From NCBI RefSeq assembly GCF_013340205.1, contig NZ_BJTG01000005.1:124001-188000 (forward strand): a DNA stretch of 64,000 bases, written 5' to 3'. The DNA is from Anaeromyxobacter diazotrophicus (GTDB lineage Bacteria; Myxococcota; Myxococcia; Myxococcales; Anaeromyxobacteraceae). Below, piece after piece: positions 1,928 through 16,227 of the stretch. The translations under genes were made by a program, and so were the position numbers. The notes beneath the pieces are model-generated. The model worked only from the letters and a program-made list of their open reading frames with translations. It searched no databases and was not told the origin of the DNA. Each line of letters starts with the position of its first letter. The first letter of the stretch is position 1.

Positions 1928-2572
1928 ATGGAAGCCGACGACCTCACGCTGGTCTCGAGAGCCAAGACCGGTGACCCCGAGGCCTTCCGCGCGCTCGTCG
2001 TCCGCTACCAGAGGAAGGTGTACGCCGTGGCGCTCGGCATCGTGAAGGACCGCGATCTCGCGTGGGATGTCGCCCAGGAGGCGTTCGTGCGAGTGCACGC
2101 GCACCTGGCCGATTTCAAGGGAGATTCCACCTTCTCCACCTGGGTGCTCCGCATCGGGAGCCACCTCGCCATCGACGCGGTCCGCAAGGAGCGCACGGCG
2201 GCCAAGGAGGAGCTCGACGAGGTGCGCGGGCAGGACGTGGCGCGAGGGGGCGAGGGCATCCTCGCCACCGCGCTCGGGAACGATCCGCAGGAGAACGCGC
2301 TCAGGCGGGAGCTGGCCGGCAAGATGACCGAGGCCCTGGCGCAGCTCCCCGAGAAGCACCGCGCCATCCTGGTGCTGCGCGAGCTGGAGGGGCTCTCGTA
2401 CGAGGAGCTGTCGGAGCAGCTGGGGATCCCGAAGGGCACCGTGATGAGCCGCCTCTTCCACGCGCGGAGCAAGATGCAGGCGCTCCTGCGCGAGTACGCG
2501 GGGCTCCCGGCTGACGAGGGCGCCCAGACCGTGGGGCGGGGGCTCGCCCCCCGCCGCGGGGGCGAATCATGA
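1928..2572 (+). CDS. ECF-family RNA polymerase sigma factor (RpoE-like)
   Basis: A 214-residue sigma-70 family protein of the extracytoplasmic-function type. Region 2 spans about residues 18-85 (core binding and -10 recognition, with WDVAQEAFVRVH and STWVLRIGSHLAID). Region 4 spans about 135-190 and holds the helix-turn-helix LSYEELSEQLGIPKGTVMSR that reads the -35 element. There is no region 1.1 or 3, as expected. The stop overlaps the start of the anti-sigma gene (ATGA), so the two are probably translationally coupled. No good Shine-Dalgarno precedes the ATG. The last dozen residues (GRGLAPRRGGES) are encoded by a palindromic repeat found elsewhere in the window, so this C-terminal tail looks acquired rather than ancestral. 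Confidence 0.93.
   Translation: MEADDLTLVSRAKTGDPEAFRALVVRYQRKVYAVALGIVKDRDLAWDVAQEAFVRVHAHLADFKGDSTFSTWVLRIGSHLAIDAVRKERTAAKEELDEVRGQDVARGGEGILATALGNDPQENALRRELAGKMTEALAQLPEKHRAILVLRELEGLSYEELSEQLGIPKGTVMSRLFHARSKMQALLREYAGLPADEGAQTVGRGLAPRRGGES
2531..2564 (+). repeat. REP-like palindromic element, copy 1 (inside sigma gene)
   Basis: A GC-rich element beginning GTGGGGCGGGGGCTC, with a 7-bp stem (GCGGGGG/CCCCCGC) around a five-base loop. It is almost the same as the minus-strand copies at 39437-39469 and 46341-46369. It supplies the last codons of the sigma-factor gene. Confidence 0.7.
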
Positions 2573-3072
2573 CCGCGTGCACCCGCTTCGCGCCCATGCT
2601 GGGCGCCCGCCCGGGCGAGCTCTCCGAGCCGGAGGCGCAGGCGCTGGCCGAGCACCTCGCCGGCTGCGACGCCTGCCAGGCGCGGCTCGCGGACGAGGAG
2701 GCGCTGGCGGGGATGCTGGGCGACGCGCTCCTCGCCGAGGCGAACCGGCGCGACTTCGCGACCTTCTCGGACGAGGTGCTGCGGCGCATCCCGGAGTACC
2801 GGGCGCGCCCCGCGGCCGCGCCGGCGCGGGCGGCCCGCGCGGGCGGGCTGCTCGACTGGGTCCGCCATCACCGGTTGTTCACCGCCGTGGGGACCCTCGC
2901 TCCGGCGCTGGCCGCGCTGGCCGTCGTCGTGTACGTTGGCCGCTCGCCGTCCCCCGCGCCCGGTGACGAGGCCGCGCTGCAGGTGAGCGCCGAGGGACGC
3001 GGCACGACGGTGCTCGACACGACCGAGGGGCCGGTGGTGCTCCTCGGCGACGACGAGCCGGCCGGGACGTAG
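2569..3072 (+). CDS. Membrane anti-sigma factor with zinc-binding motif
   Basis: A 167-residue protein coupled to the preceding sigma gene by an ATGA overlap. The N-terminus carries the ZAS/zf-HC2 signature His29-x3-Cys33-x2-Cys36, with an additional Cys4 that could complete the zinc site. A single hydrophobic segment lies at about residues 100-124, followed by a tail of about 40 residues. Such proteins hold their partner sigma factor at the membrane and release it on an envelope or redox signal; the zinc motif allows, but does not prove, redox sensing. Its place straight after the sigma gene makes it the probable cognate regulator. Confidence 0.88.
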   Translation: MTACTRFAPMLGARPGELSEPEAQALAEHLAGCDACQARLADEEALAGMLGDALLAEANRRDFATFSDEVLRRIPEYRARPAAAPARAARAGGLLDWVRHHRLFTAVGTLAPALAALAVVVYVGRSPSPAPGDEAALQVSAEGRGTTVLDTTEGPVVLLGDDEPAGT

Positions 3073-3530: not shown

Positions 3531-5108
3531 TCAGCCGGCCTCGGGCCACGCGCCCCTGAGCTCCGCCCGCAGGAGCTTCCCGGCCTCGCTGCGCGGCAGC
3601 GCCGCGAGCGCCGTGAACCGCACCGGGACGCGGTACGGCGGCATCCGCTCCCGGCAGAAGCGCCTCAGCTCGTCCTCGCCCGGCCGCGGGCCGTCGCGGA
3701 ACACCACGAACGCCTCCGGCACCTCGCCCATGAGCGCGTCGGCGGCCCCGACCACCGCCGCCTCCAGCACGTCCGGGTGGCGCGCCACCACCTGCTCGAT
3801 CTCGATCGGGCTCACCCGGTGCCCGCCGATCTTGAGGATCTCCTTGGCCCGCCCGCGGTGGAACAGGAAGCCCTCCTCGTCGCGGGAGGCGAGGTCGCCG
3901 GTCCAGAGCCACCCGTCGTGGAGGATGGCGGCGGTCTCCTCCGGCTCGTCCAGGTAACCCTGGGTGACGTTGTCGCCCCGGGCCACCAGGTGCCCGGTCT
4001 CGCCGGGTGGCAGCTCGCGCCCCGCCTCGTCCACCACGCGCAGCTCGACGCCGGGGATGGCGACTCCGATGGAGCCGCGCTTGTCGTGGGCGCGCTCGGG
4101 CGGGAGGTACGAGAGCCGCGCCGTCGCCTCGGTCTGCCCGTACATCACGAACAGCCGCGCGGGGTGAAACGCCTGCCGCACCCAGTCGATGGTCTCGGGC
4201 GCCATCCCGCCGCCCGCCTGCGTCAGGTAGCGGAGCCGCGGGAAGGCCAAACTGGAGACGTCCACCTGGCGCCGGAGGATCTCGAAGGTGAGCGGGACCC
4301 CGGCGAAGCCGGTGCACCCCTCGGCGGCCATCGCCTCGAGCGCCAGCCGCGGGAAGGCGAACCGGTTCTCGAGGAAGACCGAGCCGCCGGCGAACAGGTG
4401 CGTCTGGAGGACGCTCCGGCCGTAGCAGTAGTAGAGCGGCAGGGTGAGGAGGGCCCGATCCTCGGGGCCGAGCCCCAGGTAGCGCACGATGGAGCGCGTG
4501 TTCGCGTCGACGTTGCGGAAGGTCTGCACCACGCCGCGGGGCCGGCCCATGCTCCCCGAGGTGTAGAGGATCAGCGCCGGCGCGTCGGGGCCGAGCCGGG
4601 GGCGCGGCGGCGGAGGCGGGGGCCCGAGGTCCGGGTCGAGGCGGCCGTCGTCCCCCAGGAACGCGGCGGGCTCGCCTCCCAGCGCCTCCTGCGCCGGCCC
4701 TCGGGAACGCCCGGGGTGCACCACCCAGAGCCGGTCCAGGCCGCCCCCGGCGCGGACGGCGCGCCAGGTCCGGGCGTCGCGCGCGCTCACGAAGGCCACC
4801 CGGGCTCCGCTCTGCGCGACGATGCCGGCCAGCACCTCCGGGCTCCACTCCCGGTTCACCTCCACCGTCGTCCCGCCGGCGGCGTTCACCGCCAGCCCGG
4901 CCACGACCGTGGCCGGCTCGTTGGGCAGCGCGAGCAGGACCCGGCTCCCGGGCCCCACGCCGCCGGCGGCGAGTTGCCCGGCCAGGGCGCGGACGCGCTC
5001 GGCCAGGTCCGCGTAGCTGAGGCGGACCGAGGGCGTCGCGACGGCGGGGGCCTCGGGCCTCCGCGCCGCGTGGGAGAACAGCCAGTCGTGGAGGAGGGGG
5101 GAGTCCAA
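3531..5108 (-). CDS. AMP-forming acyl/amino-acid ligase of the polysaccharide locus
   Basis: A class I adenylate-forming enzyme of about 525 residues that activates a carboxylic acid as its acyl-AMP and passes it to a thiol. The AMP-binding core is LILYTSGSMGRPRGV, the A5-like motif is VMYGQTEATARLSYLP, and the C-terminal lid carries GRAKEILKIGGHRVSPIEIE with the catalytic lysine near the end. A TTG at 5108 with AGGGA upstream gives the usual family length; an in-frame ATG at 5231 would add about 40 atypical residues. It is divergent from the NadE-like/AsnB/ACP genes, so the likely acceptor is the acyl carrier protein at 8333. It resembles the acyl-CoA ligase of exosortase-A-associated polysaccharide loci. 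The substrate cannot be read from the sequence. Confidence 0.85.
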   Translation of the reverse strand: MDSPLLHDWLFSHAARRPEAPAVATPSVRLSYADLAERVRALAGQLAAGGVGPGSRVLLALPNEPATVVAGLAVNAAGGTTVEVNREWSPEVLAGIVAQSGARVAFVSARDARTWRAVRAGGGLDRLWVVHPGRSRGPAQEALGGEPAAFLGDDGRLDPDLGPPPPPPRPRLGPDAPALILYTSGSMGRPRGVVQTFRNVDANTRSIVRYLGLGPEDRALLTLPLYYCYGRSVLQTHLFAGGSVFLENRFAFPRLALEAMAAEGCTGFAGVPLTFEILRRQVDVSSLAFPRLRYLTQAGGGMAPETIDWVRQAFHPARLFVMYGQTEATARLSYLPPERAHDKRGSIGVAIPGVELRVVDEAGRELPPGETGHLVARGDNVTQGYLDEPEETAAILHDGWLWTGDLASRDEEGFLFHRGRAKEILKIGGHRVSPIEIEQVVARHPDVLEAAVVGAADALMGEVPEAFVVFRDGPRPGEDELRRFCRERMPPYRVPVRFTALAALPRSEAGKLLRAELRGAWPEAG

Positions 5109-5319
5109 GAGAGTCCCTGCGTTCGGGTCGTCGCGCTGCGTCCTCGGCGCCCGCCTCCGGTCGAGGCGCGGCGCCGTCCTGGCGCCGCGGGACGCGCTCG
5201 CGCCGCAAGAGCAGCGGTCCCAGCCGAGCATCTGCGCATCGTGCACTGACCGTACAACCGCTTGCCCGGGTCCTGGCCGGGCGGGCGGGGCGGCCCTACT
5301 CCTCCTGACTGGAGCGGCC

Positions 5320-6294
5320 ATGATCTCGCGAGATCTGCTGTCGATCGACGCCCCGCGCGTCGCGGACGAGATCGGGCGCGCCGTGCGGGAGCAGGTGCTC
5401 GGCCAGCTCCGGCGGCGCGGCGCGGTGGTGGGCCTCTCCGGCGGGATCGACAGCTCGGTGGTGGCGGCGCTGTGCACGCGCGCGCTCGGCCCCGATCGCG
5501 TGCTGGCCCTGCTCATGCCCGAGCGCGACTCCTCGGGCGACGCGCTGCGCCTCGGCCGCCTGGTCGCGGACGGGCTCGGCGTGCAGCACGTGGTGGAGGA
5601 CCTCGCGCCGGCGCTGGAGGGGCTCGGGTGCTACGCGCGCCAGCTGGAGGCGATCCGCACCGTCTTCCCCGAGTACGGGCCCGGCTGGCGCTGCAAGCTG
5701 ACGCTCCCCTCCTTGCTGGAGAGCGACCGGCTCAACATCACCACCCTGACGGTGTCCGACCCGGAGGGGCGCGAGCGCAGCTCCCGGCTGCCGCTCGCGG
5801 GCTACCTGCAGCTCGTCGCCGCGACCAACTTCAAGCAGCGGGCGCGCGCGATGGTGGAGTACTACCACGCCGACCGGCGCCACTTCGCGGTGGCCGGCAC
5901 GCCCAACCGCCTCGAGTACGACCAGGGCTTCTTCGTGAAGCAGGGCGACGGGGCCGCCGACTTCAAGCCCATCGCCCACCTCTACAAGACGCAGGTCTAC
6001 GCGCTGGCCGCGCACCTCGGCGTGCCCGAGGAGATCCGCCGCCGCCCGCCCACCACCGACACCTTCTCGATGCCGCAGACCCAGGAGGAGTTCTACTTCG
6101 CGCTCCCCTACCAGGACATGGACCTCTGCCTCTGGGCGTACGACCACGGGGTGCCCGCCGCCGAGGCGGCGCCGGCCCTGGAGCTCGCGCCAGCCCAGGT
6201 GGACCGGGTCTACCGCGACATCGAGGCGAAGCGCAGGGTGAGCCGGTACCTGCACCAACCGCCGCTGCTGGTCGAGGCCGTCCGGGGGAGCTGA
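5320..6294 (+). CDS. NadE-like PP-loop ATP pyrophosphatase (NAD synthase family)
   Basis: A 324-residue protein of the ammonia-dependent NAD synthase fold. The PP-loop SGGIDSS is at residues 40-46. The later NadE signature is present as GTPNRLEYDQGFFVKQGDG and the following PIAHLYKTQVYALAAHLG. There is no nitrilase-type glutaminase domain. It is longer than usual NadE (about 275) because of extra sequence around residues 110-165. A Shine-Dalgarno (GGAG) precedes the ATG, and only 2 bp separate it from the asparagine-synthetase-like gene. Placement next to AsnB, an ACP and an adenylating ligase suggests a specialised amidation or adenylation step on a polysaccharide precursor, not housekeeping NAD synthesis. 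A true NAD synthase role is not excluded. Confidence 0.8.
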   Translation: MISRDLLSIDAPRVADEIGRAVREQVLGQLRRRGAVVGLSGGIDSSVVAALCTRALGPDRVLALLMPERDSSGDALRLGRLVADGLGVQHVVEDLAPALEGLGCYARQLEAIRTVFPEYGPGWRCKLTLPSLLESDRLNITTLTVSDPEGRERSSRLPLAGYLQLVAATNFKQRARAMVEYYHADRRHFAVAGTPNRLEYDQGFFVKQGDGAADFKPIAHLYKTQVYALAAHLGVPEEIRRRPPTTDTFSMPQTQEEFYFALPYQDMDLCLWAYDHGVPAAEAAPALELAPAQVDRVYRDIEAKRRVSRYLHQPPLLVEAVRGS

Positions 6295-6296
6295 CG

Positions 6297-8336
6297 ATGT
6301 GTGGCATCGCTGGGGTCGTCTTGCTCCGCGAGGCGCTGCCGCCGCCCCGGCTGGAGGACGTCGGCGCGATGATCCAGGCCCTCGGCCACCGGGGGCCCGA
6401 CGCGTGCGGGGCCTACCGCGATCGGCGGGCCGCGCTGGGCCACACCCGGCTGTCGATCGTCGATCTGGCCGGTGGGCAGCAGCCGCTCGCGAACGAGGAC
6501 GAGACGCTGTGGATCGTCTTCAACGGGGAGATCTTCAACCACCTCGAGCTGCGCGGGGAGCTCGAGGCGCTCGGGCACCGCTTCCGCACGCGCAGCGACA
6601 CCGAGGTCGTGGTCCACGCCTACGAGGCCTGGGGCGACGCGGCCTTCGCCCGCTTCAACGGCCAGTTCGCGGCGGCGCTGTGGGACTCGACCGCCGAGAC
6701 GCTGGTGCTGGCGCGCGACGCCGCCGGCGTGTGCCCGCTGTACCTGGCCGAGCACGAGGGGCGGCTCTGGTTCGCCAGCGAGGTGAAGGCCCTCTTCGCC
6801 GGCGCGCCCGGGCTCTCCCGGGCGCTCGACCCGGTCGGCCTGGCCGAGACGTTCACCTTCTGGACGGTGGTGCCCCCGCAGGCGGTCTTCCAGGCGGTCA
6901 CCGAGCTCGAGCCGGGGCACGTGCGCAGGATCTCGCGCGGGCTCGGCACCGATCGCGCCTTCTGGACCCCGCGCTACCCGGCGGGTCCCGGCGAGGGGTT
7001 CCAGGGATCGCTCGACGAGGCGGCCGAGCGCGTCGGCGCCGCGCTCGGGGAGGCCGTCCGGCGCCGCGTGCTCCAGGCCGACGTGCCGGTCGGGAGCTAC
7101 CTCTCGGGCGGGCTCGACAGCTCGCTCGTGGCGGCCCTCGGGTGCCAGGCCCGGGGCGGCAGGTTCCGCACCTACTCCATCCGCTTCGAGGAGCCCGAAT
7201 ACGACGAGACCCGCTACCAGCGCGCGGTCGTCGAGCTCATCGGGAGCGAGCACCAGGAGCTCCTGGTGCGGCGGGAGGACATCGCGGAGGCCTTCCCGGC
7301 CGTGGTGGAGCACGCGGAGCGCCCCCTCTTGCGGACTGCCCCCGCCCCGCTCTTCCTGCTCTCGCGGCTGGTGCGCGACTCCGGCGTGAAGGCGGTGCTC
7401 ACCGGCGAGGGGGCCGACGAGATGTTCGCCGGGTACGACCTCTTCCGGGAGGCGAAGGTGCGGCGGTTCTGGGGGCGCCGCCCCGCGTCCGCGCTGCGCC
7501 TGCGGCTGCTGGAGCGGCTCTACCCGTACCTGGCGCGCTCGCCCGTCGCGCAGCGGGCGCTGGCGCGGGAGTTCTTCGGGCGGGACCGCGAGCGGCCGCA
7601 CGCGCCGGGCTTCGCGCACCAGACGCGGTGGCGGCCCACGGCGGCGCTGCAGCGACTCTTCTCCCCGGACCTCCGGGAGCTGGCCCGCACGGCCCAGGTC
7701 ACCGCGCGCCTGCTGGGGACGCTCCCGGCCGAGTTCGGCAGCTGGGTCCCGCTGGCCCAGGACCAGTACCTCGAGATCCGCACCCTCCTGGCGGGCTACC
7801 TGCTCTCCTCGCAGGGCGACCGGATGCTCATGGCTCACGCGGTGGAGGGCCGCTTCCCCTTCCTCGACCCGGAGCTGGTGGAGCTCGCGAACGCGCTCCC
7901 CGCCCGGTACAAGCTCCGCGCGCTCCGCGAGAAGCACGTGCTGAAGCGCGCCGCCGCCAGCCACCTCCCGCCCGAGATCGTCCGGCGGACGAAGCAGCCC
8001 TACCGGGCGCCCGACGCGCTCTCCTTCGTGGGGCCGCGGGCGCCGGCCTGGGTGGGCGAGCTGCTCGGCGAGCGCGCCGTCGCGCGGGCGGGGGTCTTCG
8101 ACCCGCGCGCAGTGGCGCGGCTCTGGCGCAAGTGCCGGGCCGGCTCCGCCGCCGCGCAGCTCTCGCACTCGGACAACATGGCGCTCGTCGGCGTCCTCTC
8201 CACCGCGCTGCTGCACGAGCAGCTGGTGCGGCGGCGGCCGGAGCGGCGCGCCGCGCCGGAGCTCGGGACGCTGGTGGACCGGCTGGGGGAGTGGCCGGGG
8301 AGCGAGGCGCCCCTGCAGAGGAGATGCGGACCATGA
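6297..8336 (+). CDS. asnB: Glutamine-hydrolysing asparagine synthetase-like amidotransferase
   Basis: A 679-residue protein. It begins MCGIAGV, so the N-terminal nucleophile Cys2 (after Met removal) of a class II glutaminase is present. This domain spans about residues 1-200. The synthetase domain follows, with its PP-loop SGGLDSS near residue 270 and the downstream GEGADEMFAGYD. Both active sites look intact. The enzyme should release ammonia from glutamine and transfer it to an AMP-activated carboxylate. In polysaccharide loci such AsnB relatives are thought to amidate uronic acids or carrier-bound acyl groups. It follows the NadE-like gene by 2 bp and overlaps the ACP gene (ATGA). It resembles amidotransferases of exosortase-A-associated loci; its true acceptor is unknown. 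Confidence 0.9.
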   Translation: MCGIAGVVLLREALPPPRLEDVGAMIQALGHRGPDACGAYRDRRAALGHTRLSIVDLAGGQQPLANEDETLWIVFNGEIFNHLELRGELEALGHRFRTRSDTEVVVHAYEAWGDAAFARFNGQFAAALWDSTAETLVLARDAAGVCPLYLAEHEGRLWFASEVKALFAGAPGLSRALDPVGLAETFTFWTVVPPQAVFQAVTELEPGHVRRISRGLGTDRAFWTPRYPAGPGEGFQGSLDEAAERVGAALGEAVRRRVLQADVPVGSYLSGGLDSSLVAALGCQARGGRFRTYSIRFEEPEYDETRYQRAVVELIGSEHQELLVRREDIAEAFPAVVEHAERPLLRTAPAPLFLLSRLVRDSGVKAVLTGEGADEMFAGYDLFREAKVRRFWGRRPASALRLRLLERLYPYLARSPVAQRALAREFFGRDRERPHAPGFAHQTRWRPTAALQRLFSPDLRELARTAQVTARLLGTLPAEFGSWVPLAQDQYLEIRTLLAGYLLSSQGDRMLMAHAVEGRFPFLDPELVELANALPARYKLRALREKHVLKRAAASHLPPEIVRRTKQPYRAPDALSFVGPRAPAWVGELLGERAVARAGVFDPRAVARLWRKCRAGSAAAQLSHSDNMALVGVLSTALLHEQLVRRRPERRAAPELGTLVDRLGEWPGSEAPLQRRCGP

Positions 8337-8614
8337 CCGTGGAACAGCGGCTGCGCCAGTTCGTGATCGAGAACTTCTACGTGAGCGAGCCGGCCGAGCT
8401 CCACGACGACACCCTGCTCGTGTCGGGCGGCTACGTCGACTCGACGGGGATGCTGGAGGTCATCGGCTTCCTCGAGCAGGAGTTCGACGTCCGCATCGCC
8501 GACCAGGAGATGACGCCGGAGAACCTCGACTCCATCTCCCGCATGGCGGCGTTCCTCGCGCGCAAGCGGCGCGAAGCGGCCGCCGGCGGCCCCACCGTCG
8601 CGGCAGCACCTTGA
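8333..8614 (+). CDS. Acyl carrier protein
   Basis: A 93-residue carrier protein. The phosphopantetheine attachment serine lies in GGYVDSTGMLEV (a DSL-type motif with T in place of L), followed by the helix FLEQEFDVRIADQEM typical of ACP helix II-III. The ATG at 8333 is preferred over the one at 8324 because it makes an ATGA overlap with the amidotransferase and has GAGGAG at good spacing. It probably holds the acyl group activated by the divergent ligase while the AsnB and NadE-like enzymes modify it or it is passed to the sugar chain. No phosphopantetheinyl transferase gene is seen in the window. Confidence 0.88.
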   Translation: MTVEQRLRQFVIENFYVSEPAELHDDTLLVSGGYVDSTGMLEVIGFLEQEFDVRIADQEMTPENLDSISRMAAFLARKRREAAAGGPTVAAAP

Positions 8615-8791: not shown

Positions 8792-10294
8792 ATGTTGCCG
8801 ATTGCGCTGGTGCTGGCCCTGTCGTGGGTGATCTCCCTCGCCGCCACCGCGCTCGTCCGCCGCGCCGCCCTGGCGCTCGGGGTGGTCGACTCGGCCCAGA
8901 GCTCCCGGAAGATCCACCACCGGTCGGTGCCGCGCCTGGGCGGGCTCGGCATCGTGTGCGGGATCTACGGAGCGCTCGCGCTCGGCCTGCTCTTCCCTTC
9001 CATCCGGGCAACCCTGGCGGGCGACGGGCAGCGGATCGGGGCGCTCGCGATCGGCGCCCTCGCCGTCGCGGCGGTCGGGCTCTGCGACGATCTCCGCGAC
9101 GTCCGGGCGCGGACCAAGCTCCTGGTTCAGTTCGCCGCTGCCGCGCTCCTGTACGCCTCGGGGTTCCGGATCGACCATGTCGACTTTCCCTTCGGCGCGG
9201 ACATCCTGCTCGGGCCGCTCTCCCTCCCGGTGACGCTCCTCTGGATCGCGGGCCTCTCGAACGCCTTGAACCTCATCGACGGCCTCGACGGGCTGGCCGG
9301 CGGCGTCGCCGTCGCGGCGGCGCTGGCGACCCTGTTCATCGGCGTGGGCCAGGGGCCCGACCTGGCGGGCATGCTGGTCGCGGCGGCCACCGTCGGCGGG
9401 GTGATGGGGTTCCTCGCCTACAACGTCGTGCCGGCCTCCATCTTCATGGGCGACTCGGGGAGCCTCTTCCTGGGCGTCCTCCTGGGGGCGCTCGCGATCC
9501 GGCCTCACGCGCGCGGCTCGGGCGGCATCCTCCTCGTCGCCATGGGCGTCGTGCTGGCGCTGCCCATCGCGGACACCGCGCTCGCCATCCTGCGCCGGGT
9601 GGCGCGGGGCTCGCCCGCCTTCAGCGCCGACCGCGAGCACCTCCACCACCGCCTCATCGACGCGGGGCTCTCGCACGGCCAGGCCGTCCTCGTGCTCTGG
9701 ACCGCGGCCGCCCTGCTGGCGGCGGCCGGGGTCCACCTCGCCTCGGGGATGCACGGGCGCACCCTGACCTTGGCCGTGGTCCTGGTGACCGGCGCCCTGC
9801 TCCTGCACCGCCTGGGGATGTTCACCTTCACGCGCGCGGACCAGAGCGCCCGCAGGCGGGACAACCGGGAGCTGTACGACGCGGTCCGCGTCGCCTCCAG
9901 GCGGCTCCGCGTCGCCTCCCACCTCGCGGAGGTGCGCGAGGAGCTCTCGCGCGCCGGCGCCGCCCTGCAGGTGCGCTCCCTGCGCCTCCGCACGAACGCC
10001 GAGACGCCGCCCCTGGGAGTGAGCGCGGGCGAGCTGGGCGCGCGCACCCGGTTCGTGCTCGACGCCTCGAGGCCCGAGCTGGGCGCCCTGGAGGTGGCCT
10101 GGAGCGACCTCAGATCCGGCCGGGACCGCGACGCCGAGATCGCGTTCGAGCTGCTCTCGCGCGACGTCGCGACCGCGCTGCGCCGCATCAGGTCGGCGCA
10201 GCCGCCGGAGCCCCGGCTGGCGCCGGGCGCCGGCAGGCCCTGGAGGGCGAAGAGCCCCGGGTCCGACCCGGTGGGGCCGGCGTCCCCACCTTAG
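8792..10294 (+). CDS. WecA/MraY-family polyprenyl-phosphate sugar-1-phosphate transferase
   Basis: A 500-residue polytopic membrane enzyme that starts the glycan by moving a HexNAc-1-phosphate from its UDP-sugar to undecaprenyl phosphate. About ten hydrophobic segments fill residues 1-345. Family signatures are CDDLRDVRARTKLLVQF (metal-binding DD), NLIDGLDGLAGG, FMGDSGSLFLG and REHLHHRL. A soluble, Arg-rich tail of about 150 residues follows that ordinary WecA lacks; I do not recognise a domain in it. It opens the rightward export block and is followed after about 175 bp by the Wzc-type kinase. Substrate is probably UDP-GlcNAc given the wecB and wecG-type genes downstream (inference). Confidence 0.9.
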   Translation: MLPIALVLALSWVISLAATALVRRAALALGVVDSAQSSRKIHHRSVPRLGGLGIVCGIYGALALGLLFPSIRATLAGDGQRIGALAIGALAVAAVGLCDDLRDVRARTKLLVQFAAAALLYASGFRIDHVDFPFGADILLGPLSLPVTLLWIAGLSNALNLIDGLDGLAGGVAVAAALATLFIGVGQGPDLAGMLVAAATVGGVMGFLAYNVVPASIFMGDSGSLFLGVLLGALAIRPHARGSGGILLVAMGVVLALPIADTALAILRRVARGSPAFSADREHLHHRLIDAGLSHGQAVLVLWTAAALLAAAGVHLASGMHGRTLTLAVVLVTGALLLHRLGMFTFTRADQSARRRDNRELYDAVRVASRRLRVASHLAEVREELSRAGAALQVRSLRLRTNAETPPLGVSAGELGARTRFVLDASRPELGALEVAWSDLRSGRDRDAEIAFELLSRDVATALRRIRSAQPPEPRLAPGAGRPWRAKSPGSDPVGPASPP

Positions 10295-10391: not shown

Positions 10392-10469
10392 AGCACGCAG
10401 ACGCTCGCCTGAGCGCTGGCGATCCACGCCGCGCCGGACACCGTCCTCGCCGTGCGAGGTGTCATCGTG

Positions 10470-12728
10470 ATGCCAGACCCGCCGGAGCCCATCCGCCTGG
10501 CCGGCGCGCCCGAGCCGGGGACCTCCCCCGCGCGAGGCGCAGGCCTCCCCGAGCCGCAGCTCCTCCGCGACGAGGACGAAGGGGGCTACGTCGCCACGCT
10601 CTTCGAGAGCCGCTACCTCATCGCGGCCTCGGCGCTGGCCGCGCTCCTGGCGGGCGTCGCCTACGTCCTGCTCGCCACGCCGACCTGGAAGTCCGAGGCG
10701 ACCGTCCAGATCGACGAGAAGAACAAGACGCTGGCGGGGCTCGAGGACCTCACCACGGCGCTCACCGACGCCAACCCGGCCGACGCCGAGATCGAGCTCC
10801 TCCGCTCGCGCTCGCTCCTGGGCGCGGTGGTCGACCAGCTCGACCTCGCGGTCGAGGCGCACCCGCGGACGTTCCCGCTGGTGGGCGCCGCCGCCCGGCG
10901 CCTGCACACCGGGCCGGGGCTGGCCGCCGCGCCCCTCGGCCTCGCTTCCTACGCCTGGGGCGGAGAGCAGCTCCAGGTGGCCGAGCTCGCGCTCGGCGAC
11001 GAGCTCATGGGCAGGTGGCTCGACCTCGTCGCGCTGGGCGAGGGGCGCTTCGAGCTGCGGGGCCTGGGCGGCGAGCTGCTCGCCGCCGGCGAGGTGGGGA
11101 AGCCGGCGGAGGGCGCCGGCCAGCGCATCCTCGTCGAGCGGCTGGTGGCGCGGCCCGGGACGCACTTCCGCGTGCGCGCCCGCTGGCGCGAGGCCGTCAT
11201 CGACGAGCTCAAGGAGCGCATCCGGGTCGCCGAGCAGGGCCGGAAGACGGGCGTCATCGGCCTCTCGCTCTCCGGGCCGGACCGGGCGCTGGTCCCCGCC
11301 ATCCTCGACACCCTCGTCCACAGCTACGTCCAGCAGAACGTGCAGCGCAAGTCCGCGGAGGCCGCGAAGACGCTCCAGTTCATCGAGGAGCAGCTCCCCG
11401 CGCTCAAGGCGCGCGTCGACGCCGCCGAGAGCGCCCTGAGCCGGTTCCGGCAGAGCAAGGGCTCGCTGGACCTGCCGGCCGAGGCGCAGGCGATGCTCGA
11501 CCGGAGCGTCGAGGTCGACAAGACCCTCTCCGATCTCGAGCTGCAGCAGGCGGACCTCTCCGGCCGCTTCACCGGGGCGCACCCGCTGGTGGCCGCCACC
11601 CGGCAGAAGATGGAGCGCCTGCAGGCGGAGCGCGCCGCGCTGGCGGAGAAGATGCGCGCCCTGCCCCAGCAGGAGCTCGAGACCGCGCGCCTCACGCGCG
11701 ACGCCCGCTCCTCGGGCGAGCTCTACGTGCTCCTCCTCAACAAGGCGCAGGACCTCCGGGTGGTGAAGTCCGGGACGCTCGGGAACGTGCGCGTCGTGGA
11801 CGGCGCCATGCGCCCGTACGAGCCCGCCAGCCCGAAGCCGCTGCTCTCCTGCGCGCTGGCGCTCGCGCTCGGCCTGGTCGGCGGCGTCGGGATGGCCTTC
11901 GTGCGCGGCTCGCTCAAGGGCGGGCTGGAGGACCCGGACGCGATCGCCGCGCTGACCGGGCTCTCGGTGTACGCGACGGTGCCGCACAGCGACCGCCAGG
12001 CGGCGGTCGCGCGCGGCCGCCCGGAGCCGGGCGCGCCGGCGGCCGCGCTCGCGGTCGAGGATCCGGCGGACGGCGCGGTCGAGGCGCTCCGACGGCTCCG
12101 CACCAACCTCCAGTTCGCGCTGACGAACTCCCGGAACAACGTCATCGCCATCGAGGGCCCGGTGGCCGCCGTAGGCAAGTCCTTCGTCTGCTGCAACTTC
12201 GCCCACATCCTGGCGGACGCGGGGCGGCGGGTGCTGCTCGTCGACGCGGACCTGCGGCGGGGGCAGCTGCACCGCGCCTTCGGCGGCGAGCGGGCCCCGG
12301 GCCTGTCCGACGTCCTCGCCGGCGAGGCCACGCTCGCGACCGCCGTGCGGACCACGAAGGACGCCCGGCTGGCGTTCCTGTCGTGCGGCACGCACCGCGC
12401 GCGCCCCTCCGAGATGCTGGCCAGCCCGCGCCTCAAGAGCCTGCTGGAGGAGGCGGCGCGCGCCTACGACGTGGTGCTGGTGGACACCCCCTCCGTGCTC
12501 GCCGTGACCGACGCCGCGCTCGTCGCCCGGTTCGCCGGGGTGAACCTCCTCGTCCTCAAGGCGGGCGCGCACCCGCCGCGCGAGATCGCGCTCGCGCTGA
12601 AGCACCTCAAGGACGGCGGCGCGGCGCTCCGGGGCCTCGTCATCAACGACGCGGTCATCGGCTCCTCGCGCTACGGGCGCTACGCCCGGTACGGCTACCA
12701 GCGCTACGAGTACGGCGGCGAGCGCTGA
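10470..12728 (+). CDS. wzc: Wzc-type polysaccharide co-polymerase / BY-kinase
   Basis: A 752-residue inner-membrane protein that controls chain length and export. It has an N-terminal Wzz domain (first membrane helix about residues 48-70), a long periplasmic part with heptad-rich coil and GNVR-type region (about 280-420), a second helix near 455-475, and a cytoplasmic BY-kinase domain. The latter shows a Walker A-like loop (GPVAAVGKS, about 563), Walker A' VLLVDADLRRG and Walker B VVLVDTPSVLAV. The last 20 residues hold a tyrosine cluster (SSRYGRYARYGYQRYEYGG), the autophosphorylation tail. The ATG at 10470 is preferred to the in-frame GTG at 10452 because GAGG lies at good spacing. Its outer-membrane partner is the Wza-like protein at 31697; no Wzb-type phosphatase is seen. 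Confidence 0.92.
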   Translation: MPDPPEPIRLAGAPEPGTSPARGAGLPEPQLLRDEDEGGYVATLFESRYLIAASALAALLAGVAYVLLATPTWKSEATVQIDEKNKTLAGLEDLTTALTDANPADAEIELLRSRSLLGAVVDQLDLAVEAHPRTFPLVGAAARRLHTGPGLAAAPLGLASYAWGGEQLQVAELALGDELMGRWLDLVALGEGRFELRGLGGELLAAGEVGKPAEGAGQRILVERLVARPGTHFRVRARWREAVIDELKERIRVAEQGRKTGVIGLSLSGPDRALVPAILDTLVHSYVQQNVQRKSAEAAKTLQFIEEQLPALKARVDAAESALSRFRQSKGSLDLPAEAQAMLDRSVEVDKTLSDLELQQADLSGRFTGAHPLVAATRQKMERLQAERAALAEKMRALPQQELETARLTRDARSSGELYVLLLNKAQDLRVVKSGTLGNVRVVDGAMRPYEPASPKPLLSCALALALGLVGGVGMAFVRGSLKGGLEDPDAIAALTGLSVYATVPHSDRQAAVARGRPEPGAPAAALAVEDPADGAVEALRRLRTNLQFALTNSRNNVIAIEGPVAAVGKSFVCCNFAHILADAGRRVLLVDADLRRGQLHRAFGGERAPGLSDVLAGEATLATAVRTTKDARLAFLSCGTHRARPSEMLASPRLKSLLEEAARAYDVVLVDTPSVLAVTDAALVARFAGVNLLVLKAGAHPPREIALALKHLKDGGAALRGLVINDAVIGSSRYGRYARYGYQRYEYGGER

Positions 12729-12735
12729 CCGCCGC

Positions 12736-13329
12736 TCACTCGCGGTCGCGGAGCGCCGCGTTGTCGTAGCCGACGCGGACGACGCGGGCGGGGTTCCCCA
12801 TGACCAGGCTGTCCGGGGGCACGTCCCGCGTCACCACCGCGCCGGCGGCGACCGTGGCCCCGGCGCCGACGTGGACCGGGCCCACGATGCGCGCGTGCGG
12901 GCCGACCCACACCCGGTCTCCGAGCCGCGGGCCGGCGCCGCCTTCGGGCGCGGGCTCCACCCGGACCTCCTGGTGGATCACGCAGCGCTCCCCGAGGCGA
13001 CACCCGCGGAGGCGGATGCCGCCCAGGTGCCAGATCTGGAGCCCGGCCCCGATCTCGGCCGAGGCGTCCAGGTGGATGTCGAAGGCGCGCCGCACCCACG
13101 CGTCGAGCAGGGCCCAGGCCGGCGCCAGGCCCGCCGCGGCGGGCCAGCGGGCCGGGCGGCGGGCCGCCGCGCGCACCCATCGGCCGAGCCGGTAGGCCAC
13201 CAGGGCCTGCAGCCCGGAGCGGTAGAAGAGCAGGAACGGGATGCGGCCGGGGACGAGCACGCGCCGCGGCTCCGGGCCGGGCGAGAGGTCCGAGGTGCAC
13301 TCGAAGTCGGCGCGGAGGTCCTCGAGCAC
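12736..13329 (-). CDS. Serine-acetyltransferase-like hexapeptide O-acyltransferase
   Basis: A 197-residue protein with a helical N-terminus (LLFYRSGLQALVAYRLGRWV) and a left-handed beta-helix of hexapeptide repeats from about residue 85 to 180 (IGAGLQIWHLGGIRL, VWVGPHARIVGPVHVGAGA), ending in MGNPARVVR. This is the layout of CysE/WcaB-type acetyltransferases, which use acetyl-CoA. In this place it probably O-acetylates a sugar of the repeat unit. The start is a GTG at 13329 with AAGGGG upstream. It lies 10 bp after a second hexapeptide transferase of the same strand; its stop is 7 bp from the stop of the convergent Wzc gene. Confidence 0.88.
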   Translation of the reverse strand: MLEDLRADFECTSDLSPGPEPRRVLVPGRIPFLLFYRSGLQALVAYRLGRWVRAAARRPARWPAAAGLAPAWALLDAWVRRAFDIHLDASAEIGAGLQIWHLGGIRLRGCRLGERCVIHQEVRVEPAPEGGAGPRLGDRVWVGPHARIVGPVHVGAGATVAAGAVVTRDVPPDSLVMGNPARVVRVGYDNAALRDRE

Positions 13330-13339
13330 GGGCGCCCCT

Positions 13340-14110
13340 TCACCCCGCGCCGGTCCCGGGCGGCGAGCCGCACGCCGCCGCGAGGCCGCGCCGCAGCGCG
13401 CCGTGGTCGGCCTCGCGCCGCACGACGCGCGCCGGATTGCCCTGGACGACCGCGCCCGCCGGCACGCTCACGCTGAGCACGGTGTCCGGCAGCACCGTCG
13501 CCCCGTCGCCTACGCGGATCCTCCCGAAGATCACGCAGCGCGGCCCGATCCACACCCCGCGCCCGATGTCCGGCTTGTCCTCCGGCAGCGCGCCGCGGCC
13601 GATGGTGACGTGGTCGTGGACGATCGTCCCCGCCCCCATGGAGCGCGGCCCGATGATGATGTGGCCCCGCTCGGAGAGGTAGACGCCCCCCTCGATCACC
13701 GCCCCGGCCGTGATCGAGCTCTTGAAGAGCACCTCCCCCGCCCGGAGCGCCAGGATCGCGCCCAGGCGCGCCCCCCGCCGCAGCGGCCGGAGCGAGCCGG
13801 AGGCGGAGCCCCAGGCCAGCGCGGCGGACCCCACCCTGCGGATCGCGAGCAGGTGCAGGCCGCGCGCGCCCGCGAGGACCTTCGCCCGCGCCCACCAGCC
13901 GCCGCGGCCGCCGGGGTGGCGGAGCGCGTAGGCGAAGCGCGCGTCCTCCCGGAGCGCCCGCCACGGGCTCGAGGGCCCCGCGAGCGGCGCGGGGGTCCGG
14001 GCGGGCCCGGGCCTCGCCGCCGCGCGCTCGCGCACCGGGGCGCCGCGCGCGCCGCGCGCGAGCTGCTCGCTGGCGATCTGCTCGCTGGCCATCCGGTCCA
14101 GCATCGTCAT
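13340..14110 (-). CDS. Hexapeptide-repeat acyltransferase
   Basis: A 256-residue protein from the ATG at 14110 (ATGACGATG); the open frame continues upstream, but that part has no conserved character. Residues 1-110 are Ala/Arg-rich and variable. The beta-helix lies from about 130 to 240 (IIIGPRSMGAGTIVHDHVTIG, VWIGPRCVIFGRIRVGDGA) and closes with VVQGNPARVVRREAD. Like its neighbour it should transfer an acetyl or other acyl group to a sugar. The two are not obviously recent duplicates, since they differ in N-terminal part and loop content. Start choice is moderately certain. Confidence 0.82.
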   Translation of the reverse strand: MTMLDRMASEQIASEQLARGARGAPVRERAAARPGPARTPAPLAGPSSPWRALREDARFAYALRHPGGRGGWWARAKVLAGARGLHLLAIRRVGSAALAWGSASGSLRPLRRGARLGAILALRAGEVLFKSSITAGAVIEGGVYLSERGHIIIGPRSMGAGTIVHDHVTIGRGALPEDKPDIGRGVWIGPRCVIFGRIRVGDGATVLPDTVLSVSVPAGAVVQGNPARVVRREADHGALRRGLAAACGSPPGTGAG

Positions 14111-14208
14111 CGCCCCCGCCGCGCGCCAGCGATCTGCCGCCTGCCGGGCGGAGCCGACCGCTCGGGGCCGCGGCCCGGGGGCCCTCGCGAGCGGCGTGGG
14201 CAGCGCGT

Positions 14209-16227
14209 TCAAAGGGCGCAGGGGCCGGGGTCGGAGCCCTTGCACACCAGCGCCTTCGAGACGTAACCGTTCCAGTTGTGGTCGGCCGCGCCGCTCCCCA
14301 CCGTGAGCTGCCCCCCGGCGAGGTCGGGCGGTGGGACGTTCGGGAGCCCCGGCGGGTCCGATCCGGCCGTGCCGGCGGCCGCGCCGTCGACGTACAGGTG
14401 GAGCTCCCCGGCGGGCGTGACGCACCCCTTCACCTCGTGCGCCGAGCCGTCCGCCAGCCCGGCCGTCGGCGCGCAGGCCCAGCGCGTCTCACCCCCGCGC
14501 GCCGCGGTGGCGAGGTCGAGGCACAGCTGGCCGGAGGTCCCGGCGCCGACCCGGAGCTGCGACCAGGTCTGCCCGTCGGCGGCCATCCACTCGGCGGCCA
14601 CCCGCCAGCTCGCGAACCGCGCGCTCCACGGCAGGTGCTCGGCCGGCGCCGCCACGACGCTCAGGCAGTAGCCGCTGCCGGTGCTCTGGGTGAGCGGAGG
14701 GAGGAGGAGCTTGTCGATGGCCTCGGTCCCCTGCGTCCCGCCCGACGAGTACAGGGACGGCCCCGGGTCGAACCCGCCGAGGTCCCCGCCGCCGGCGAGC
14801 TCGGTGAGGACGGCGCCCCAGGCGTCGAACTCGACCTGACTCGAGGAGGTGTTGGCCAGGATGAACTGGGCCACGCCGGTGGGGTCCGTCCTGAGCCCGG
14901 GGACGAACACGCGCGTCCAGCCGGTGCCGATCGCGGCGAGGTCGATGGCGAGGTCGGCACCGGGGCCGCGGCCGTCCTTCACGACGACGGTACCGCTCGC
15001 CGACCCCGGCACCTGCCGGACCCAGAGCTGACCCTGCAGCACGGTGCTCGCCGGGAAGGTCCCCCGCTGCGTCGCCGTGAGGGTGGCGCCGGCGGGGAGC
15101 GTGACGCGATCGGCCGAGGCGCGCTCGCTGTCTCCGGGCGGCTCGCTCTGGTCGGCCACCACGGCCGCGCCGCCGGCCGCCGTCCAGCGGTCGAGCGCCT
15201 CGGGGTCCGCGAGCCGGTTGTAGCCCTGCAGCCCGAACAGGAACCCCTTCGCCGGATCGATGCGCGGGCCGTGCAGCCAGGTGGTGTGGTACTGCCCGTC
15301 CACGCCGACGAACGGCGCCTCGCCCGGGCGGAGGTAGGTGGCGACCGAGCCGTCGGCCAGGGTCAGCCCCTGGAACGCCGCCAGCTTCGCCTGGAGGTTC
15401 TTGGGGGTGGCGGCCTCCTTCCACACCGCCGTCTCGTAGACGCGCCCGTGGAACGCGTGGTTCGGGTCGCCGTTGGCGTAGCCGCCGATCGTCGCCGGCT
15501 CGGTCGGGGCGACCATCGCGCCCGTGATCGTCATCTCCTGCATGGTGTCGGCGACGCCGTTCGCCGACATGCGGATCGTGTCGCCGTCGCGCCCGGCGCA
15601 GACGACGACGTAGGACGCGTTGAGCTCCTGGTTGCGGCTCCCGGCCGGCGCGTCCCCGAGGTGGGTCGAGGTGGTGATCATCCACTGCCCGGGCGTCATG
15701 AAGCTCCCGGCGCCCCCCGCCTGGTAGTGGAAGCAGAACTGGTCGTGCATCTGCATCAGCACCCAGCCGCTCTCGCCCTGGAGGCCCTTCGCGACGATGA
15801 TGCCCTCGTTCCCATCCACGAGCGGATTGAGCTGCGGCTTCACCACCGCGCAGACGGTCATGTCGCCGCGGAGGTCGAGCGCGTCGCCCCCCGCCGCCTG
15901 GAAGCGGCTCGCGTCGAACGGGCCCGCGCCGTAGCGCGGCCCGTCGGGGAATCCGCCGAACGCGCGCTGCGCCGGCGCCGCCGCCCCGACGGTCGACCAG
16001 GAGATCCCCTTCGTCTCGACGAGCGACGCCCCGTCGAAGCGCGCGTGCTGGACCAGCGTCGAGGCGCCGTCCTGCCAGGGCGCGCCCCAGGTGGTCGGGG
16101 ACACCCAGGCCTGGACGACCGGGCCGCTCGGCGGAGGAGGCGGCGGCGGCGAGGAGGACGACGCCCCGTGACAGCCGGCGAGCACCGCCAGCGCGACGAG
16201 GGACGTGCGGGAGCGGGCGAGCCGCAT
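14209..16227 (-). CDS. LamG-like lipoprotein in the polysaccharide locus
   Basis: A 672-residue predicted lipoprotein: signal with lipobox VLAGC near residues 15-19, then a Ser/Pro spacer (SSSS followed by a proline run). Two regions have concanavalin/laminin-G character: about residues 40-310 (MTVCAVVKPQ, GGYANGDPNHAFHGRVYETAVW) and 520-670 (AHEVKGCVTPAGELHLYVDG, WNGYVSKALVCKG). A central part near 310-500 resembles a carbohydrate-binding beta-sandwich. LamG folds usually bind glycans or proteins at the surface, so a role holding the polysaccharide at the outer membrane is plausible but inferred. No catalytic motif is visible. It is divergent from the propeller protein at 16505. Confidence 0.75.
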   Translation of the reverse strand: MRLARSRTSLVALAVLAGCHGASSSSPPPPPPPSGPVVQAWVSPTTWGAPWQDGASTLVQHARFDGASLVETKGISWSTVGAAAPAQRAFGGFPDGPRYGAGPFDASRFQAAGGDALDLRGDMTVCAVVKPQLNPLVDGNEGIIVAKGLQGESGWVLMQMHDQFCFHYQAGGAGSFMTPGQWMITTSTHLGDAPAGSRNQELNASYVVVCAGRDGDTIRMSANGVADTMQEMTITGAMVAPTEPATIGGYANGDPNHAFHGRVYETAVWKEAATPKNLQAKLAAFQGLTLADGSVATYLRPGEAPFVGVDGQYHTTWLHGPRIDPAKGFLFGLQGYNRLADPEALDRWTAAGGAAVVADQSEPPGDSERASADRVTLPAGATLTATQRGTFPASTVLQGQLWVRQVPGSASGTVVVKDGRGPGADLAIDLAAIGTGWTRVFVPGLRTDPTGVAQFILANTSSSQVEFDAWGAVLTELAGGGDLGGFDPGPSLYSSGGTQGTEAIDKLLLPPLTQSTGSGYCLSVVAAPAEHLPWSARFASWRVAAEWMAADGQTWSQLRVGAGTSGQLCLDLATAARGGETRWACAPTAGLADGSAHEVKGCVTPAGELHLYVDGAAAGTAGSDPPGLPNVPPPDLAGGQLTVGSGAADHNWNGYVSKALVCKGSDPGPCAL

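Follow-up and report, generated by a model that had tools for sequence, protein, structure and literature searches.

Four neighbouring genes of Anaeromyxobacter diazotrophicus, encoding an adenylate-forming ligase, a NadE-like PP-loop protein, an AsnB-type amidotransferase and an acyl carrier protein (ACP), belong to a real and strongly conserved gene set. On balance they appear to form a dedicated carrier-protein cassette in which the NadE-like protein would be an ATP-pyrophosphatase (ATP-PPi) amide synthetase, the two synthetases would amidate an acid and an acyltransferase would deliver it; we infer this function only at the level of reaction type. The window, i.e., the whole stretch of 64,000 nucleotides that was analysed, corresponds to positions 124001-188000 of contig 5 of the 4.83-Mb genome (Table 1). 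A preliminary description of this DNA had listed four adjacent genes with the ligase divergent and the other three 2 bp apart or overlapping, and all of them were found in these places: the NadE-like frame stops at 6294, 2 bp before the AsnB ATG at 6297, and the AsnB stop codon (TGA, 8334-8336) and the ACP ATG at 8333 overlap within the sequence ATGA. On the other strand, the ligase frame is open as far as 5516 and its homologous part starts near the TTG at 5108. No Rfam element and no consensus promoter or terminator was found in the cassette region. Just upstream of the cassette (1928-3072), a predicted ECF-type sigma factor is followed by an anti-sigma-like gene.

Table 1. Features of the cassette and of the adjoining genes, in window coordinates
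Feature	Position	Strand	Remarks
AMP-binding class I adenylate-forming ligase	3531..5108	-	Divergent; TTG start at 5108 tentative
NadE-like PP-loop ATP-pyrophosphatase, cassette marker gene	5320..6294	+	NF002048/PRK00876 subfamily; 324 aa
PP-loop SGGIDS (ATP site) of the NadE-like protein	5437..5454	+	Residues invariant in NadE-like proteins and housekeeping NadE
Family-specific insert of the NadE-like protein, about residues 101-160	5620..5799	+	Housekeeping NadE lacks these alignment columns or differs in them
AsnB-type glutamine-hydrolysing amidotransferase	6297..8336	+	Nucleophile Cys2 at 6300-6302; PP-loop SGGLDS
Acyl carrier protein (ACP)	8333..8614	+	Phosphopantetheine Ser37 at 8441-8443 (DSTG)
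WecA/MraY-type polyprenyl-phosphate sugar-phosphate transferase, adjoins cassette	8792..10294	+	TIGR02380, 120 bits
Wzc-type chain-length determinant / tyrosine autokinase	10452..12728	+	PRK11519, 544 bits; TIGR01007, 132 bits, over its cut-off
Left-handed beta-helix (hexapeptide) acyltransferase	12736..13329	-	Hexapep PF00132; EpsC/CysE-like below cut-off
Second hexapeptide-type acyltransferase frame, start uncertain	13340..14425	-	Pfam score just below cut-off

The four genes stay together far beyond the source genome, as expected if they form one module. The NCBIfam model NF002048 was exceeded in 75 of 193 Myxococcota genomes, and 37 of the 40 Myxococcota loci fetched carry the four genes complete, the other three being cut by contig ends. 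Scanned against GTDB genomes, the NadE-like alignment found at least 583 genome stretches that encode a relative. Eighty of these were sampled, with titles that name Pseudomonadota, Acidobacteriota, Planctomycetota, Bacteroidota, Ignavibacteriota, Nitrospirota, Gemmatimonadota, Verrucomicrobiota, Armatimonadota, Spirochaetota, Rokubacteria and also Myxococcota (many are metagenome bins, so that single phylum assignments may be wrong), and all four genes are present in 61 of this sample of 80. Among loci in which the NadE-like gene has at least 7 kb of sequence on either side, the set is complete in 29/29 from Myxococcota and in 45/51 from about ten phyla of the sample (74/80 combined), compared to 0/20 control loci of housekeeping NadE with any ligase, AsnB or ACP of the cassette kind. 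The co-occurrence search that had been proposed together with the one-module reading therefore bears it out. Loci L095, L100, L102, L129, L137 and L148 harbor the NadE-like gene without the full partner set. The gene order within the cassettes shows many permutations, indicating that the linkage is kept by function and not by inherited synteny or recent descent. These counts rest on tblastn and HMM matches because, in GC-rich DNA, codon-composition gene calling puts some starts and frames in the wrong place.

The set is also found in annotated plasmid records of Mesorhizobium, Sinorhizobium meliloti (on pSymB, in the order asnB-ACP-ligase-nadE), Azospirillum and Shinella, where the genes are annotated as asnB, acyl carrier protein, AMP-binding or adenylate-forming enzyme, and nadE. 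Among 142 genomes drawn evenly from the class to which M. ciceri belongs, only two carry the cassette and one of them is M. ciceri itself, which suggests a patchy accessory trait there; M. ciceri WSM1271 possesses two NadE-like genes on different contigs (G193:C1:5552254 and G193:C2:394876). Methanosarcina acetivorans gave the sole NF002048 match over the cut-off among 14 control genomes, which extends the NadE-like family to archaea. Some loci (L045:474-2264; L132) show a second ACP-ligase pair near the cassette. An apparent fusion of an A-T-thioesterase protein with the NadE-like protein in Mesorhizobium sp. AR07 (L155:10898-14668, minus strand) has no stop codon between its parts, but they are joined out of frame and it was rejected as a frameshift; the loci showed no further fusion between cassette genes.

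The NadE-like protein matches NF002048 (PRK00876), a model named 'NAD(+) synthase', with 518.3 bits over residues 3-322 (cut-off 313), and its Pfam domain is NAD_synthase. It had been described as lacking a glutaminase domain and carrying an extra segment of about 50 residues, and both hold: the glutaminase domain is absent, and true NadE is devoid of the segment, in which C104, Y105, P117 and K126 are invariant or nearly so within the family and which forms three predicted strands in the AlphaFold model. The model as a whole (pLDDT 87.6) has the NadE fold, with the NadE of Pyrococcus as the closest structure (2e18, TM 0.85 by target). The ATP-site residues S40-G42, D44, S45, T194, E199, D210 and K223 are invariant across the NadE-like and housekeeping alignments, and the NadE-like proteins have pocket motifs of their own (GTPNRLEYDQGFFVKQGDGAAD, PTTDTxS and QTQEEFYF). 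A separate NadE of the long, glutamine-dependent type is encoded on contig 16 of the same genome (C16:6299-7051; PF02540, 244.7 bits), and a separate NadE is present in 20/20 genomes examined. In a tree built with a quick method, in which the E. coli sequence has a long branch and an uncertain placement, 44 NadE-like sequences form one clade (SH-aLRT 95) apart from 32 housekeeping sequences. The preliminary description would have been refuted by a NadE-like protein that falls inside housekeeping NadE in a genome with no second nadE; the protein lies outside the housekeeping sequences sampled and the second gene exists. The separate NadE genes, the clade and the control loci lead to the rejection of a housekeeping identity, and the protein named 'NAD(+) synthase' is not the housekeeping enzyme. 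The housekeeping NadE of Myxococcaceae (L178-L181) is itself very divergent, with an SGGRDS PP-loop and about 36% identity to the NadE of the window's genome, and phage NadE proteins gave distant matches only.

The catalytic residues of the other three proteins are nearly invariant across the cassettes. The ligase comprises the Pfam domains AMP-binding and AMP-binding_C, with PRK06187 and TIGR03098 as its best NCBIfam models, both under their cut-offs, and the A10 lysine is found in 103/104 cassette ligases. AsnB comprises Asn_synthase and GATase_7, exceeds the cut-off of TIGR01536 (508 bits, cut-off 267) and belongs among the AsnB-type glutamine amidotransferases; its nucleophile Cys2 is kept in 101/107 and its PP-loop in 106/107 cassette proteins. 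The ACP lies under the Pfam limit and matches NCBIfam carrier-protein models of other pathways below their cut-offs, while the Asp-Ser of its phosphopantetheine site (DSTG in the window) is present in 105/105 cassette ACPs.

The window's family of NadE, AsnB and ACP proteins shares 67, 64 and 47% mean identity, respectively, with the type ordered NADE-ASNB-LIG-ACP (Mesorhizobium and others) and 54, 44 and 39% with the Myxococcaceae type, whereas the ligase shows the reverse (34% and 53%, respectively) and falls in cassette ligase type I in the ligase tree. Starred branches in the NadE and ligase trees support the mismatch. By these comparisons the window cassette is a hybrid, with its ligase derived from another cassette type. 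The correlation of distances is highest for NadE and AsnB among all gene pairs (r = 0.78); together with the reversal of identities, this points to the ligase as an exchangeable module and to the NadE-like protein and AsnB as the tightest pair. The A4 motif separates the two ligase types (YYCYG and AFDYG), which may thus load different acids.

Accessory genes were counted within 7 kb in 127 cassette loci, many of them on cut contigs, and in 20 controls. Hexapeptide (LbH) acyltransferases recur in 40/127 loci, the window included, SGNH-like proteins in 24/127 and GNAT-like acyltransferases in 9/127, all three with 0/20 in controls; any recognised acyltransferase was seen in only 49/127 loci. 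The hexapeptide protein next to the Wzc-type gene of the window is a candidate for the transfer step. The GNAT-like protein, found in alphaproteobacterial loci, has no Pfam match; in its predicted structure (pLDDT 78) it is similar to Eis and N-myristoyltransferase. The SGNH-like protein looks secreted (FFGHQSVG ... DDGGHLN) and has no Pfam or NCBIfam match (L066:3317-4180 and 23 other loci). A PrmC-like methyltransferase accompanies the cassette in 34/127 loci, compared to 1/20 controls; it scores 168 bits, under the cut-off of 199 for true PrmC, and NPPY, the glutamine-binding motif of PrmC and amide-N methyltransferases (PMC8904536), is kept in 28/28 proteins examined. This fits a carboxamide product and is the best hint of one, possibly N-methylated in some lineages, although the protein could instead methylate another planar nitrogen. 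In Mesorhizobium (L106:7257-9992) the NadE-like gene is immediately preceded by a gene for a minimal A-T-thioesterase protein with the PCP motif GGDSL, and in Tardiphaga (L109:8829-9968) by one for a thioesterase-domain protein. Four loci of Acidobacteria and Deltaproteobacteria have a methylmalonyl-CoA epimerase-like VOC protein near the cassette (L145:5619-6038; 68 bits, below cut-off), a possible hint of an acid with an epimerisable alpha carbon.

With regard to the acceptor, the preliminary description had the acyl group placed on a glycan. In the window, the cassette is followed by the WecA-type and Wzc-type genes and then by the two hexapeptide-type frames, and a query set of 21 proteins recognised polysaccharide genes within the fetched stretch in 32/92 loci, compared to 2/20 controls. 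The remaining 60 of the 92 loci have no recognisable polysaccharide gene nearby, which weakens a glycan-only reading, and in some taxa, Myxococcus and Sinorhizobium among them, the cassette is more or less isolated. A glycan acceptor is thus plausible here from the context of the window and does not generalise across loci. The absence of an exosortase, also noted earlier, extends to the whole genome, where PF09721 has no match, and an exosortase-dependent reading is rejected for this genome. PF09721 was over its cut-off in 7 of 24 genomes or records, and in two Anaeromyxobacteraceae its matches lie about 13-16 kb from the cassette on the same contig (G111:C19:448535; G171:C1:4157039). In Ca. 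Manganitrophus, the cassette sits inside an XrtW exosortase locus with the exosortase gene directly downstream (L116:11007-12560), together with chain-length, autokinase, glycosyltransferase, deacetylase and FemAB genes, so the likeness to exosortase-A loci drawn in the preliminary description was apt.

We infer that the steps would proceed in the following order, with the amide on the carrier-borne acid. The ligase would adenylate a carboxylic acid and attach it to the ACP phosphopantetheine; AsnB, using glutamine, and the NadE-like enzyme, using ammonia, would convert the carboxylate or carboxylates of the acid to carboxamides before or after loading; and an acyltransferase specific to the context (of the hexapeptide type here and in many loci, of the GNAT fold in Alphaproteobacteria) would pass the amide-bearing acyl group to the acceptor, in the source genome probably a sugar of the polysaccharide from the adjoining locus. 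The near-constant presence of two amide-forming enzymes suggests either that the acid has two carboxylates or that one of the enzymes acts on the acceptor sugar.

Amidation of the acceptor sugar is the chief rival, because in Porphyromonas an AsnB related to TIGR03108 forms a uronamide (PMC7468200). Here, AsnB, the NadE-like protein or both would amidate a nucleotide- or lipid-linked uronic acid, and the same sugar would separately receive an N- or O-acyl group by way of the ligase and ACP. An NDP-uronate resembles deamido-NAD in its pyrophosphate-linked ring carboxylate, and the NadE-like protein shares with NadE an N-x-x-x-R-x-R motif (N170, R174 and R176), which leaves room for a nucleotide-linked substrate; AsnB scores 419.5 bits with TIGR03108, the glucuronamide of WbpS stands on an N-acylated sugar (same source), and the Ca. 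Manganitrophus locus joins the cassette with FemAB, a deacetylase and an exosortase. We nevertheless consider this somewhat unlikely, since many loci have no polysaccharide gene nearby and the near-constant pairing of the two amidating enzymes with a ligase and an ACP would be left unexplained.

It is quite unlikely that the product is a free small molecule of amide or peptide-like nature, for instance an osmolyte or a signal, that a context-specific enzyme frees from the carrier and that is not bound to a glycan. Such a product would suit the stand-alone cassettes in Sinorhizobium and on plasmids, the A-T-thioesterase protein beside the Mesorhizobium cassette and the 370 bits of AsnB with the N-acetylglutaminylglutamine amidotransferase model, but it sits poorly with the hexapeptide and GNAT acyltransferases, the SGNH-like proteins and the polysaccharide genes above controls, and with the WecA, Wzc and hexapeptide neighbours in the window. 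It is highly improbable that the NadE-like protein is just an isoenzyme of ammonia-dependent NAD synthase lying near a polysaccharide locus by chance: its database name, its fold and its intact ATP site would allow it, whereas the separate NadE in every genome examined, the separate clade, the family-specific insert and pocket residues and the almost unbroken association with the same three partners across about ten phyla all argue against it.

The preferred reading, a carrier-protein cassette with two amide synthetases, has a wider form that we put forward tentatively and that falls just short of being probable. The PRK00876 subfamily, with its at least 583 genome stretches, would be misnamed as a whole. 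Its members would be specialised amide synthetases, the first with a NadE fold known to act alongside a carrier protein, and they would form the centre of a four-gene pathway, undescribed and horizontally mobile, by which cell-surface glycans or other acceptors receive acyl groups that bear an amide. If so, hundreds of genomes bear a wrong 'nadE' label on an enzyme of another function, and the pathway has been overlooked in model organisms, e.g., on pSymB of Sinorhizobium meliloti and in Mesorhizobium; Myxococcus and Corallococcus species are, we take it, among the carriers as well. The NadE fold would gain a new substrate class, the pathway would give genetic access to a new surface or secreted amide, and the products of the ligase/ACP/amidotransferase sets of exopolysaccharide loci would become testable in laboratory strains.

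Several known systems share parts of this arrangement. WbpS of Porphyromonas gingivalis, a TIGR03108-related AsnB-type enzyme, makes a uronamide (glucuronamide) on an N-acylated sugar and acts with a VimA/FemAB-type aminoacyl transferase; as in the window, an AsnB-type amidotransferase lies beside surface-glycan genes, but its substrate is a uronic acid, and the accessible part of the account describes no NadE-like partner such as the cassette possesses (PMC7468200). Ammonia- and glutamine-dependent NadE enzymes have in common with the NadE-like protein the fold, the PP-loop and several active-site positions, whereas the latter is set apart by its clade, insert, pocket motifs and carrier-protein neighbours and by the second NadE in the genome. 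The OxyD malonamoyl starter of oxytetracycline, BtrI/BtrJ in butirosin and RfbK/RfbL in V. cholerae O1 likewise involve an acid that a ligase activates and that is modified on an ACP before its transfer, and to our knowledge none of these routes includes a NadE-like enzyme. A literature search retrieved no paper on the gene set and no described system that combines a NadE-like enzyme with a ligase/ACP/amidotransferase set, in line with the earlier statement that no system with exactly these genes was known. The closest concept is the XrtA/PEP-CTERM set (TIGR03098 ligase, TIGR03099 PLP decarboxylase, TIGR03108 amidotransferase and ACP), whose proteins are the nearest or second-nearest named relatives of the window ligase and AsnB. 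However, the ligase reaches 309.8 bits against a TIGR03098 cut-off of 592, AsnB stays under the TIGR03108 cut-off of 816.9, which is exceeded in 0/41 genomes (its own and relatives), the best TIGR03099 score in the source genome is 210 of 478 bits and lies on another contig, and the XrtA set has an exosortase, which the source genome does not. We know of no XrtA set with a NadE-like enzyme. The cassette thus resembles the XrtA carrier-protein set but is not a member of it.
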